The notes below the pieces were generated by a model. The model made no database searches. It worked only from the letters and a program-made list of their open reading frames with translations, and was not told the origin of the DNA. From positions 124,001-188,000 of the forward strand of contig NXFV01001368.1 of the NCBI GenBank assembly GCA_002803225.1: DNA of 64,000 bases, in the 5' to 3' direction. The stretch's first letter is position 1. Each line of letters begins with the position of its first letter. This document shows positions 24,351 to 29,298 of the stretch, in pieces. The translations under genes and the position numbers were made by a program. This DNA is from Gamarada debralockiae. Lineage: Eukaryota; Ascomycota; Leotiomycetes; Helotiales; Hyphodiscaceae.

Positions 24351-25146
24351 ATGGCTGACGAGGTCTACGAAGGCGCGATCGGTATCGATCTTGGTAGGTT
24401 TACAATACCTGTTTCTGCAAATACGATTGCCGTCGGCTTTATCGACTTTATCTTCAAAGGCTGACTTTTTTGTTCGAATAGGCACCACATACTCCTGCGG
24501 TACGTTCTTCGATATGGTGTCTCAATGCGACGAGCCAGAGATGTCAAATACAGTTTATTAATATCAAAACAGTTGCCAACTATGAGGGAACCAATGTCGA
24601 GATCATTGCCAACGAGCAGGGTAGCTTCACCACTCCATCCTTCGTCTCTTTCACCGACAAGGAGCGTTTGATCGGTGAATCCGCAAAGAACCAGGCTGCT
24701 ATGAATCCAAGAAACACCATCTTTGATATCAAGTTAGTTTGCTCTCTCTGTTGACCGCCATCGTCTCGTGAGGTCTTTTCCGCTGACAAGGCTGTAGGCG
24801 ACTGATCGGGCGACGATTCGACGACCCCACAGTCAAGAAGGATATCGAGTCATGGCCATTCAAGGTCGTTGACCAGGATGGAAACCCTATGGTTGAGGTT
24901 GAGTATCTCGGAGAGAACAAGACCTTCTCACCTCAGGAGATCTCATCCATGGTTTTGACCAAGGTAAATTGCCTCATAACTACGGCAGATGATCGTGTGC
25001 TGATTTGCAATCACGTATAGATGAAGGAAGTCGCCGAAGTCAAGTTGGGCAAGAAGGTCTCCAAGGCCGTAATTACCGTCCCTGCCTACTTCAACGACAA
25101 CCAGCGTCAAGCTACTAAGGATGCTGGTGCCATCGCCGGTCTCAAC

Positions 25147-25178
<32 letters not shown>

Positions 25179-28100
25179 TGCTATTGCATACGGTCTCGGT
25201 GCTGGAAAGTCAAACAAGGAGCGCAATGTCTTGATCTACGATCTCGGTGGTGGAACTTTCGATGTGTCCCTTCTCAACATCCAGGGTGGTGTTTTCACCG
25301 TGAAGGCTACTGCCGGTGATACTCACTTGGGAGGACAGGATTTCGATACCAACTTGCTTGAGCACTTCAAGAAGGAGTTCCAGCGCAAGACCAAGAAGGA
25401 TATGTCAAATGACCCCCGTGCCCTTCGACGTCTCCGAACCGCTTGCGAGCGTGCCAAGAGAACCCTCTCCAACGGTGCTCAAACCACTGTTGAGATTGAT
25501 TCCCTTTTCGACGGAGAGGATTTCAACGCCCAAATCACCCGTGCCAGATTCGAGGACTTGAACTCCAAGGCTTTCAACGGCACTTTGGAGCCAGTTGCCC
25601 AGGTCTTGAAGGATGCTAACCTCGACAAGAGTAAGGTTGACGAGATTGTGCTTGTTGGTGGATCTACCCGTATTCCTCGGATACAAAAGCTCCTGAGCGA
25701 TTTCTTCGATGGCAAGAAGCTTGAGAAGAGCATCAACCCTGATGAGGCCGTCGCATACGGTGCCGCTGTCCAGGCTGGAATCCTCTCCGGAAAGGCCACC
25801 TCCACCGATACCGCCGATCTCCTCCTCTTGGATGTCGTTCCTCTTTCCCTCGGTGTTGCCATGGAGGGTAACATCTTCGCCCCTGTCGTTCCTCGTGGTC
25901 AGACCGTCCCTACCATCAAGAAGGTCAGCAGAAAACTTTCCCTTTCACCCTCTACTACACCATGTTTTATCCCCTGCTTGTTTTGATGCCAGTCCAAAAG
26001 TACTTTTGCGGTGGTGGTGCACTGGAGTGAGGGTGTTCCTTCCCTACTGGGTACCTTCTCTTAGGGATGGCGGCACCTTCTACTCTTGAGGATGCTCCTT
26101 CCTTCAGTAAGGAGGGATAATCTTACTTACTTCTCCTGCTTTCCGTCTGCTGTTTTCTTCTTGTCATCCTCTCCTTCACGCACATTCCAGCAGAGAGCCT
26201 GCGATCACTTCTGCTGCTCCTGTCGAGTCTTGTCCACGATCACTACTGCTGCTCCTCGAATCTCGTAAATCGGCGGCGTCTGTTCTCCCACCCTGGGCGT
26301 CATCCAGTCACAATGGCGTTCGAGGTTCCCACCATCATCTCGACGATGGTGCTGATGACATTTGCTTGTCTCGTCATGCCAGTTCACAAGCACGGTCTGT
26401 TCAGCCAAGTCTTCCCGACTAAAGAAGTACTTTCGGAGATCCTCTCTGCCGCCTCCCTGTCTTTCTGCCCTGGTCTTCTCGAGGCAATCGGTGGCACCAA
26501 TCCTCCCGGTCTGAGCTTCTTCAAGTCATTGCCTACCGATGTTCACAAACGATGGGGCATTTATGCACTGGTCCTCGAGAAGCACAATGCGATGCCACTG
26601 GTCTACATTGGATCTGGAACTCAGGCCACGGCTGGTGTTCGGATTCGCTTTCGCCAATATGATTCATCGGACAACCCCATTCTACCTACGTATGTCAAGG
26701 CTGCTATGCAGGACGGCTACGTTGTAGTTCACAAAGGACTTCTCATATGGACTCCTCTTCCATCCGCTGCAGATGCTCCGCGCACTCGTCTTCTGTTCGT
26801 CGCAATGGAGGCCGCATTGAGCTTCACGTTCTGGACTATGTATTCTCGCAAGAAGGACTACAGCATGACTGGCTTCTGTCGTTGGCCTCTCGAGTCGTTC
26901 GAATACCATGGACTATGTAGTCACAATGCCATGTGGGAAGGTCCCGCCGGCAACTTCGACCTCTCTCCCGAACAGCTCGAGTCCATAGCCGCCGCGGTCA
27001 AGGAGAAGAATCGTCTGTACCTTGTCGACTACTATCAGAACAATATCAAAGGCGATCCTGCGGCCGAGGTTTTACGGCGCGAGGCCCAGAAGCGGTATGC
27101 CCAAACAGACAAGGCTCTACAAAGAGGACAGCGCTTCGAGGAGAGAAGAATGGAGTCCAAGGATTACCACTGTTACACCTGCAATGTTACATGCAGGAAG
27201 CAAAGCGAACTTGACAGACACCAGCTCTCGAAGAGGCACAAGCAGAAGGTGGAGCTCGAGAGTCGGGGTCTGTCCTACAAGCCGAGTCGCTCTACGCTCA
27301 AGCAGGCCAAGGCCAAGGAGCGCGGAAATTACTTTTGCGAGACCTGCGAAGTTGTCTGTTCCAGTCAATACGAACTGGACAGACACGATAGATCCAAGCG
27401 TCACTTGAAGCAAGTGGCGGAGGACAAGTCGAGCGTGAGCTCGACTTGACAAAATCGACGGCACCGATTTTTGGCTTTTCTGGACTTGCATCTTTCTCGG
27501 ACTTTCATCATTGTCAGACTTTTCATCGTTCTCGAACTGTCGTCTATCACGAACTATTATCATACTTGAATATTCGCTAACATATCAATTCAGAGAACTT
27601 TCACCACCGTTGTATGTACAGATCGCGCCCCCAAACTCCCAGTGTCTCCAGAACCGAAGACCTCAGCTCCCCACTCCCAACAGATCTCTTGAATGCCCAT
27701 ACTAATCTATTTCAGGCTGACAACCAACAAACCGTTCAATTTCCCGTTTACCAGGGTGAGCGTGTGAACTGCGAGGATAACACCTCCCTCGGAGAGTTCA
27801 CTCTTGCACCAATTCCTCCTATGAAGGCTGGTGATGCCGTTCTCGAGGTCGTCTTCGAGGTCGATGTCAACGGTATCCTTAAGGTTACTGCCACTGAGAA
27901 GACCTCAGGACGTAGCGCCAACATCACCATCTCCAACTCTGTCGGCAAGCTTTCCTCAAGTGAAATTGAGAGCATGATCAGCGGTTAGTACAGCTCTCTC
28001 TACTCTTGGTGTCAAATACTAACGAATTATAGATGCCGAGAAGTTCAAGAACAGCGACGAGGCTTTCAGCAAGAAGTTCGAGGCTAGACAACAACTCGAG

Positions 28101-28301
28101 TCCTACATCTCAAGAGTCGAGGAGATCGTTTCCGACCCCACCATGTCCCTCAAGCTCAAGCGTGGAACCAAGGAGAAGATCGAGTCTGCGCTCAGCGACG
28201 CCATGGGTCAGCTTGAGATCGAGGACTCTACTTCAGATGACTTGAAGAAGAAGGAGCTCGCACTGAAGAGAGTGGTCACCAAGGCCATGTCTACCCGCTA
28301 A
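24351..28301 (+). CDS. SSB1: Ribosome-associated Hsp70 chaperone Ssb, 614 aa, eight exons
   Basis: Exons are 24351-24393, 24482-24499, 24573-24732, 24798-24963, 25021-25923, 27594-27611, 27716-27983 and 28033-28301, totalling 614 codons, close to the ~613 aa of yeast Ssb. Ssb binds nascent chains at the ribosome exit tunnel with the RAC co-chaperones. The ATPase domain shows [34 protein letters not shown] and [11 protein letters not shown]. The substrate domain has [19 protein letters not shown] and [13 protein letters not shown]. The C-terminus lacks the EEVD of cytosolic Ssa and ends in VVTKAMSTR, as in Ssb. Two exons are only 18 nt. Intron five is 1,670 bp and houses another gene. Confidence 0.96.
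25924..27593 (+). other. Giant SSB1 intron hosting a complete gene
   Basis: The donor is AAGAAG|GTCAGC and the acceptor is CAATTCAG|AGAACTTTC, with a CTAAC branch-like site about 16 bases before the acceptor. The intron is 1,670 bp against 50-105 bp for the other SSB1 introns. It splits the invariant TIKK|RTFTTV sequence, so it must be removed for a working chaperone. Retention would stop translation after about 20 extra codons. An 11-base sequence near the donor (AGAAAACTTTC, 25930-25940) closely matches the acceptor/exon junction (AGAGAACTTTC, 27592-27602), 10 of 11 identical. Confidence 0.85.
26313..27449 (+). CDS. GIY-YIG-like protein with two C2H2 zinc fingers, nested in the SSB1 intron
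   Basis: This is an intact, intron-free 378-codon frame on the same strand as its host. The N-terminus is hydrophobic ([15 protein letters not shown]). Residues about 83-125 read [20 protein letters not shown] followed by RIRFRQY, which matches the GIY...YIG...R signature of GIY-YIG nucleases. A later Glu (VAMEAALSF) could be the metal-binding residue. The C-terminal third has two fingers of the form C-x2-C-x12-H-x5-H (CYTCNV...HQLSKRH and CETCEV...HDRSKRH), the spacing of U1/JAZ-type nucleic-acid-binding fingers. Nuclease plus DNA-binding fingers is the architecture of a homing endonuclease, but host-gene domestication is possible. Activity is inference. Confidence 0.8.
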   Translation: MAFEVPTIISTMVLMTFACLVMPVHKHGLFSQVFPTKEVLSEILSAASLSFCPGLLEAIGGTNPPGLSFFKSLPTDVHKRWGIYALVLEKHNAMPLVYIGSGTQATAGVRIRFRQYDSSDNPILPTYVKAAMQDGYVVVHKGLLIWTPLPSAADAPRTRLLFVAMEAALSFTFWTMYSRKKDYSMTGFCRWPLESFEYHGLCSHNAMWEGPAGNFDLSPEQLESIAAAVKEKNRLYLVDYYQNNIKGDPAAEVLRREAQKRYAQTDKALQRGQRFEERRMESKDYHCYTCNVTCRKQSELDRHQLSKRHKQKVELESRGLSYKPSRSTLKQAKAKERGNYFCETCEVVCSSQYELDRHDRSKRHLKQVAEDKSSVSST

Positions 28302-28638
28302 ACTCTCTACCTACCCACCACACAGACAAGATCGCACATACGGAGAAAGGGGTGTTGATGCATCATGATTTTCATTTCATGAAATGGATTGGCCCATCTG
28401 GTTTCTGGCTCATTTTCTTCTTTCATCACTGGGATAAAAAGTCATTTTACGATTTTCTGATCTGGCCGCTCTGTGATCCATTGACGGAGGATAGCTTCTT
28501 CTTTTGACTACGGGCATAAAGCGCGCTTGTAGAATAAGAAGAACGGGAATAATCAAATTGAAGCAAACATCCAAAAATCTTGACTTCCATTCTGCATATC
28601 TGAGTGACCATTCTGTGATCTTGGATATCGTAACTTCC
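28302..28638. other. Intergenic, convergent 3' ends
   Basis: This separates the SSB1 TAA and the stop of the minus-strand 2EXR gene. It is AT-rich 3' untranslated sequence with no coding content. Confidence 0.5.
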
Positions 28639-29298
28639 TTACGTCCTTACTATGTGCCTCCCATCAGAAACCATCCGCCACGCGCCTTCCCCCTCATCAT
28701 CAAACACCCACCCGACATGCTGAAAGGGCTCACGCTGGTACAAAACTCCAGGCTCCCAATCATATATCTCATCCGGCCAGGCCGGCCCCGCCATCAGCAC
28801 GGAACGCTCCAAATAAGGATCTGCCAGTAAGGTCCTCAAGGCCTTCCAATTCGCATTGCCCTCTCCAACTTCCCCCGCCGTCATAATCCTCATCCAGTCC
28901 TCTCTCGTCCTAACCTCCAGATCCCTCAGTCGCCCATTCAATATACAATCCTCCAGTGCGGGAAGTAAGCGCTGAACAAAGAAATCTTTCGTTCCCCATC
29001 GGATAATGTTGAGGCGCAGAGTGCGGATTTGCCTACGGTTGTCGAGCCAGGAGGGAGAGAGGAAGTACTCCCAGATGTCATTGCGCTTGAGTAGTGTTAT
29101 GGAGAAGCCATTTGATGTTAGGTACAGAGGACGTAGCTCATGGTATATTTGGACATTGGTGAGGAGGAGGTTGAGGGGAAACGAGGCGTGGGCATCGGGA
29201 GCGTTGAGTAGGATGTATGGTTTTGAAGAGGTGCTGATTAGGATGTATATCTTCTCGCGGATCTCTGGTGGGAGTTCAAGAAAGGGGAAGCTCTTCAT
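28639..29298 (-). CDS. 2EXR/F-box-like domain protein, 219 aa
   Basis: This is a single-exon frame from ATG 29298. The first 70 residues read FPFLELPPEIREKIYILI, then NLLLTNVQIYHELRPLYLTS. This is the F-box-like start of the fungal 2EXR family (named for its 2EXR motif), which is widely expanded in Leotiomycetes and of unknown function. A middle helical part (RRQIRTLRLNIIRWGTKDFF) and a Trp-rich C-terminus complete a typical length of 200-300 aa. It is divergent from the ribosome recycling factor gene with 295 bases between starts. Confidence 0.75.
   Translation of the reverse strand: MKSFPFLELPPEIREKIYILISTSSKPYILLNAPDAHASFPLNLLLTNVQIYHELRPLYLTSNGFSITLLKRNDIWEYFLSPSWLDNRRQIRTLRLNIIRWGTKDFFVQRLLPALEDCILNGRLRDLEVRTREDWMRIMTAGEVGEGNANWKALRTLLADPYLERSVLMAGPAWPDEIYDWEPGVLYQREPFQHVGWVFDDEGEGAWRMVSDGRHIVRT

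Follow-up and report, generated by a model that had tools for sequence, protein, structure and literature searches.

A 64,000-nucleotide stretch of DNA from the ascomycete Gamarada debralockiae (the window) carries an intact gene for a GIY-YIG and zinc-finger protein inside a large intron of SSB1, a gene for an SSB-type Hsp70. Judged from sequence comparison, this nested gene is very probably a selfish gene of the homing-endonuclease type that occupies a spliceosomal intron in a housekeeping gene of the nucleus, and the whole insert would represent a cellular spliceosomal homing intron. The reading is drawn from the nuclease fold of the protein, from lineages specific to conserved sites, from the intact, decayed and empty states of the site, and from diverged alleles beside identical exons. 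An earlier note had proposed a homing-type gene using a nuclear spliceosomal intron, and the comparison supports it through the predicted fold, the grouping by target gene, a remnant and intron-free sites.

The SSB1 gene and its large intron

The features of the locus, in window positions, are the following.

25021..25923, plus strand: exon of SSB1 (an SSB-type Hsp70) that precedes the insertion and ends in QTVPTIKK, with Hsp70/SSB homologues; presumably part of the recognition target
25924..27593, plus strand: GT-AG intron of 1,670 nt, phase 0, between KK and R, running from GTCAGC to a CTAAC placed 12 nt from the end, and housing the nested gene
25924..26312, plus strand: intron leader, 389 nt long and containing four upstream ATGs; parts of it can be recognised in the relatives P0131, P0079 and P0017
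26313..27449, plus strand: nested gene, encoding a 378-aa GIY-YIG and double zinc-finger protein, by sequence and model a candidate homing endonuclease
26547..26945, plus strand: GIY-YIG nuclease fold, residues 79-211, with Y98, G100, R112, R159, E166 and H204 invariant
27165..27239, plus strand: zinc finger 1, residues 285-309, a zf-met match
27330..27404, plus strand: zinc finger 2, residues 340-364, a zf-C2H2_jaz match
27450..27593, plus strand: 3' part of the intron, with a branch-site-like GCTAAC and the acceptor TTCAG
27594..27611, plus strand: SSB1 micro-exon RTFTTV, 18 nt, with the nested-gene intron on one side and the 104-nt intron on the other
27612..27715, plus strand: ordinary SSB1 intron of 104 nt
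27716..28301, plus strand: remaining SSB1 coding sequence to the stop codon, beginning ADNQQ and including one more short intron

In the reading of the window, the upstream exon ends with ACC ATC AAG AAG at 25923. The large intron, which opens with GTCAGC and closes with CGCTAACATATCAATTCAG, is followed by the exon AGA ACT TTC ACC ACC GTT, by the 104-nt intron and by GCT GAC AAC. Translation of the joined exons gives VPTIKKRTFTTVADNQQ and runs to the SSB C-terminus with no internal stop. It had been claimed that the SSB1 exons join once the 1,670-nt GT-AG intron is removed, and this has proved correct, the reading frame being restored. The nested gene is accordingly placed in an element that spares its host, to the extent that predicted removal of the GT-AG intron restores SSB1. 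The donor GTCAGC is atypical at +3 and +6, yet it is preceded by AAG; the donor site of the large intron looks weak from its sequence.

A search of Rfam with positions 25500-28400 (E up to 1) gave no matches, that is, no group I or II self-splicing RNA structure, and a self-splicing intron was rejected for this reason. Since there is no group I intron, removal must be by the spliceosome. No inverted repeats of at least 14 nt occur at 25800-27720 and the intron holds no other ORF of at least 200 aa, and a transposon was discarded on both grounds. An SSB1 exon probe found one exact place in the genome assembly, so that SSB1 is single copy and carries the insert. Its second match, at C805 (71% identity over 158 bases), is presumably another Hsp70 gene. 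In the one assembly of the source species, no empty (intron-free) SSB1 allele was seen.

The start of the intron, CAGAAAACTTTC (25929-25940), and the exon junction, CAGAGAACTTTC (27591-27602), match at 11 of 12 positions, and 37 of 2000 shuffles did equally well. A target-site duplication was considered here; by eye none is present at the three other introns described below, and the match is probably due to chance, or else may be a duplication scar. Directly downstream of SSB1, the minus strand contains an ORF of 219 aa (window 28639-29298).

The nested protein

The nested gene is a single intact ORF of 378 codons in the same orientation as SSB1, as had been described earlier from the letters alone. 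In 1000 dinucleotide shuffles of the intron, the longest ORF reached 293 codons (mean 99). GC3 is 0.62 in the nested ORF and 0.62 in the SSB1 exon, and overall GC is likewise equal; a recent mitochondrial transfer was rejected on the GC3 values.

The motifs reported earlier, namely GIY, 13 residues, YIG, a downstream Arg and two C-x2-C-x12-H-x5-H fingers, have all been located. GIY occupies residues 82-84 and YIG residues 98-100, the Arg is R112, and the fingers start at 287 and 342. In an alignment of 56 sequences, made up of the window protein and 55 of the 79 relatives from the first search, Y98, G100, R112 and E166 are present in 56/56 and Y84 in 55/56. From their position and conservation, R112 and E166 may form the catalytic pair.

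The predicted structure of the protein has a pLDDT of 92, and the nearest solved structure to its GIY-YIG domain is I-TevI. The earlier note had staked its reading on a GIY-YIG fold, and the fold predicted by the model is GIY-YIG, according to VIA-align and one BFVD match (E 8.3e-4). Plain Foldseek searches of the PDB with each of two models gave no significant matches. The Pfam GIY-YIG family (PF01541) was not matched by the nested protein in hmmscan, is absent from the 25 families shown for 56 family members, and found nothing when its profile was run against the source genome. A profile search of PDB sequences returned 285 chains, the best 60 of which all matched through the zinc-finger part. 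In structure comparison of the model, its C-terminal fingers are similar to chains from the U2 and U1 snRNPs. From this likeness, the protein might favour splicing of its own intron.

Relatives in other fungi

The family comprises 116 protein clusters, 79 from a first search and 37 new ones among the 40 rows of a second; P0079 is counted among them on a short-stretch match. Seven named relatives whose classes were established belong to the Dothideo-, Leotio-, Sordario-, Eurotio- and Lecanoromycetes, five classes of Pezizomycotina. The earlier note had suggested a search of fungal genomes with the nested protein and a mapping of the insert across the Helotiales; the family extends well beyond that order. 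All relatives are known as predicted proteins, their introns being deduced from read-through or from gene-model fusion.

By precomputed Pfam annotation, nine of the 116 clusters are joined to a host domain, which is always Hsp70 or aconitase; this tally is biased, as the second query was the aconitase-fused P0043, picked to admit long fusions, with the nuclease part scored. Hsp70 is joined in P0013, P0033 (Alternaria alternata), P0049 (A. arborescens) and P0079, and aconitase in P0043 (Vermiconidia calcicola), P0103 (Diaporthe eres), P0106 (Lachnellula subtilissima), P0108 and P0112 (Zymoseptoria tritici). Gene models may misplace the exact junction of nuclease and host. After the nuclease, P0013, P0033 and P0049 continue with SSB sequence from TFTTVADNQQ, and in P0013 an R stands before it, which gives the junction of the window. 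The joins within aconitase fall at two points or more: P0103 and P0112 have theirs after LTVKGGT(G), P0043 and P0108 before SIISSYNRNFTGRND. In P0198 (Diplodia seriata), fingers of the family are joined at a second site in SSB; they are closest to those of P0050, P0047 and P0038 (44-46%).

Six family proteins with unfamiliar Pfam entries were rescanned, and their matches were to zinc-finger-type families, with no host domain in any of the six. The end of P0001 resembles, by eye, the translated 3' part of the SSB1 intron. The family member P0084 (Neophaeococcomyces mojaviensis) is annotated as carbamoyl-phosphate synthase cpa2. Perhaps this name reflects another host gene absorbed by annotation, the CAD copy of the source genome (see below) lying in a related enzyme.

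Occupancy of the SSB1 site

The SSB1 site has been found intact, decayed and, by all appearances, intron-free. In the two Alternaria proteins P0033 and P0049, the SSB part downstream of the insert is identical (183/183 aa) and the nucleases agree at 156/261 residues (60%), with the reservation that the two rows could be unlike loci. P0079 shares 230/231 exon residues with the window, continues into the intron leader and has little beyond the last finger, as expected of a remnant. In P0017 the leader is in frame, there is no Met at the expected start, and about 166 internal residues are missing.

The survey of the site covered 120 of 2,385 matches, and the counts given here are among those listed. 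KK-R[TS]FTTV is unbroken in 76/120 rows; 35 of these overrun a later exon end and look like unspliced genomic ORFs that are intron-free at the site, while 41 extend to the normal C-terminus and may be models already spliced. The remaining 44 consist of six without the site motif, seven with a residue other than R directly after KK, as in the window (P0079, P0131 and P0204 among them), P0214, which stops one residue past KK, and 30 that continue beyond KKR, or 28 when two apparent gene-model oddities are set aside. SSB1 introns lying two bases apart suggest independent gains. The intron after RTFTTV also occurs in SSB1 ORFs that have no large intron, the clearest being P0130. A similar read-through after KKR (RYV) is seen by eye in P0122, P0143, P0144, P0182, P0196, P0205 and P0215, and may represent a partly conserved 5' intron leader. 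A check of site occupancy had been called for, and it has yielded a near-identical exon with a mere remnant (P0079), intron-free SSB1 ORFs in many fungi and the 60%-identical Alternaria nucleases.

Other copies in the same genome

Searches of the source genome with three family members led to the same four loci among the best candidates scored, the SSB1 copy included. All four copies lie within introns of host genes, in host orientation. The three others are all broken, and all occupy long introns of conserved genes.

C432: CAD/pyrABCN-type gene (GATase, CPSase, MGS and ATCase domains), intron of 1,565 nt, one TAG and a frame change
C278: NIK1/OS-1-like gene (HAMP repeats, HisKA, HATPase and receiver domains), intron of 1,251 nt, stops and frame changes
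C277: tricalbin-type SMP-C2 gene, intron of 1,449 nt, stops and an internal 284-nt repeat at 72%

The domains were computed, and CAD and NIK1 are the names that we take to fit the hosts at C432 and C278. NCBIfam confirmed the CPSase/ATCase and the hybrid kinase from the host exons and gave no match for those of the C2 protein. Removal of each of these introns is likewise predicted to restore its host gene. Each of the four introns has GT..AG ends and a CTAAC or CTAAT that lies 11-14 nt from its 3' end. Their DNA shows no cross-match in blastn (E up to 1e-3), and the proteins of the other copies are 34-46% identical to that of the window; an introner-like element was rejected on these figures for the four loci. 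No target motif shared by the four sites is evident by eye.

The kinase-gene intron splits its host between SHEIRTPM and NGIIG. This copy (L007, C278, at about 4381 and 5633) breaks up the codons of SHEIRTPMNGIIG, where the HisKA phospho-acceptor region begins, and judging by its sequence the insertion site is again a highly conserved motif. In the 3' part of the same intron, bases 880-977 and 1033-1130 form a 98-nt repeat at 80%, perhaps of duplicated zinc-finger units. The tricalbin-type intron (L008, C277, 3987-5435) contains two pieces of the family, one short and N-terminal, the other longer and broken, which would fit a second hit at the site or a partial duplication of it.

Grouping by target gene

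Trees of the family have been built from several sets of rows. With 19 labelled rows, a single branch separates the six copies at the SSB1 site from all other rows (94/89; recovered in 96% of 200 bootstrap trees); its values fall just under the mark for strong support, and the second-site group is set apart by another branch (100/100). In that set, labels were inferred for P0001, P0016 and five second-site rows. The SSB1 label of P0016 derives from its contig having the same length, 24,791, as that of the SSB1 ORF P0227, and the second-site labels from finger similarity to P0198 alone. The 12 rows in which the host is directly seen omit all seven, and the SSB1 copies are again together (94/95). 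The careful tree omitted P0017, P0071 and P0079.

The Alternaria copies resident in SSB1 group with the window copy, and the window copy does not group with the others of its own genome. Forced monophyly of the four own-genome copies, a test selected after a first tree, was rejected with p-AU of 0.0027 (12 rows) and 4e-55 (19 rows). In these trees, the first 60 or so residues of the L007 piece are out of the family frame, which lengthens its branch, and the L008 piece is short. The aconitase copies do not form one side of a branch, and two changes are needed to place them. A quick tree of 109 rows has the SSB1 copies in one group of 45 rows (SH-aLRT 87), which includes no row labelled CAD, NIK1, tricalbin or aconitase. 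This tree left out 11 clusters, several of them long-branched (P0017, P0044, P0056, P0059, P0069, P0070, P0071, P0072, P0077, P0078 and P0079).

Lineages that track their target site, with patchy presence and decay, are therefore found for the SSB1 site and not for aconitase as one group. According to the earlier note, plain inheritance would leave the gene in all relatives with a congruent tree; instead, the nucleases group by target gene, not by host genome.

Proposed mechanism and alternative explanations

In a homing cycle, the C-terminal fingers and their neighbouring regions would bind the intron-free SSB1 exon and the GIY-YIG domain would cut it. Repair from the occupied allele would copy the whole intron into the cut site. 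Splicing would take the intron out of the SSB1 mRNA and so spare the host, and the conserved exon would keep the target present in other strains and species. After fixation, the nested gene would decay, as the three other own-genome copies have done, and the lineage would survive by invading new strains and species. A more tentative extension, rated a little short of an even chance, is that such introns are widespread mobile elements of Pezizomycotina, which act as natural nuclear gene drives on housekeeping genes, cross between species by site-specific cutting and, through copying of the whole intron into an intron-free exon, create spliceosomal introns, some introns at the SSB1 site or two bases from it being their decayed remnants.

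Catalytic residues kept family-wide, an intact frame and GC3 equal to that of SSB1 (0.62 each) would also be expected of a domesticated host gene, a GIY-YIG and zinc-finger repair or regulatory protein nested by chance in the SSB1 intron and serving the host. The other copies of the same genome are broken, however, and lie in three unrelated genes; P0079 retains a mere remnant beside a near-identical SSB1 exon, and two Alternaria species differ at the same SSB1 site, which makes this origin very unlikely. Another alternative is that transposition or ectopic repair placed the gene by chance in an SSB1 intron that was already old, and in other introns, with introns as sites of survival and no site-specific homing. 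Survivorship would favour introns, and among the matches listed SSB1 ORFs enter an intron at the same position (7/120) or two bases on (28/120). Random survival would not predict that copies from different fungal classes fall together when they share a target gene and site, whereas this is what the trees indicate; the same SSB1 site is occupied in the window and in Alternaria, and the intron lacks inverted repeats of at least 14 nt. Chance insertion is considered improbable.

Fungal mitochondria commonly carry GIY-YIG homing genes (PMC7487136, as far as available), and an organellar, contaminant or chimeric sequence could have been placed in SSB1 by assembly or gene modelling. Such an artefact is scarcely credible, given that the nested gene matches the host exon in GC and GC3, that a 91%-identical relative and the SSB1-intron leader occur in proteins from other sources, and that Alternaria gene models have the same arrangement. 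A viral carrier was also rejected: a scan of IMG/VR gave 46 pattern matches with none confirmed, and blastn against 'phages' gave none. A host of the mirusvirus type was dismissed as well, the window belonging to a 54-Mb genome of 1,112 contigs in which the neighbouring ORFs read as ordinary cellular genes. A homing gene carried by a spliceosomal intron is the explanation retained.

Comparison with known systems

Spliceosomal homing introns ('shintrons') were described from mirusviruses in 2025, in a report declaring that the association had not been observed before (PMC12768974, Nat Microbiol, in its available part). Their endonucleases were HNH (171), GIY-YIG (132), VSR-like (16) and PD-(D/E)XK (15). 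They share with the SSB1 insert an endonuclease gene in a spliceosomal intron without recognisable group I/II signatures, and with the fungal family a preference for target genes and a homing that is deduced; the likeness meant here is one of arrangement. The viral introns lie mostly in virion genes, whereas the fungal family occupies housekeeping genes of a cellular genome, and the terms 'zinc finger', 'fungi' and 'fungal' are absent from the main text of that paper (PMC12768974). The sequences at SSB1 agree with the definition of a shintron, an endonuclease gene in a GT-AG intron of neither group I nor group II with target-gene preference, and the insert looks like a cellular, fungal version of the mirusvirus introns. 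In the open-access literature searched, no report of cellular spliceosomal homing introns came up, and the one precedent met was that of the mirusviruses, which are giant viruses; most subscription papers and bioRxiv lay outside this search, which leaves priority unproven.

Copies in fungal housekeeping genes would bring the phenomenon out of viruses that are mostly known through environmental genomes and into testable organisms. Genera with sequenced, named species are included, and cutting, splicing and inheritance are open to test in them. Such elements would provide a concrete means by which spliceosomal introns are gained and pass from one species to another, and would be a natural equivalent, in the nucleus, of the homing introns of organelles. 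They also carry a warning for annotation, since some current gene models fuse nucleases of the family to Hsp70 and aconitase.

With I-TevI and other phage and organellar GIY-YIG enzymes, as covered in the available part of PMC3943268, the nested protein shares the catalytic fold, a nuclease tethered to a separate elongated DNA-binding region in which zinc fingers are possible, and a gene lodged within the intron of a conserved host gene. Their introns are of group I (PMC3943268), and Rfam finds none in the SSB1 insert. The nested protein differs from the I-TevI type in its two C2H2 fingers of the zf-met/JAZ type and in an extra N-terminal helical region. UMAG_11064 of Ustilago maydis is likewise a homing gene of the GIY-YIG kind carried in the nuclear genome of a fungus (PMC7593156, available part). 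Unlike the SSB1 insert, it came recently from the mitochondrion, whose codon usage it keeps, and is inactivated; it truncates a telomeric RecQ-type helicase gene, and the word 'spliceosomal' is absent from that paper. Fungal introner-like elements are multiplying spliceosomal introns of ascomycetes, with parallel gains up to 15 bp from regular introns (PMC4457414, available part). By comparison, the introns of the source genome are four single ones, mutually dissimilar in DNA, and each contains a nuclease gene or its remains.
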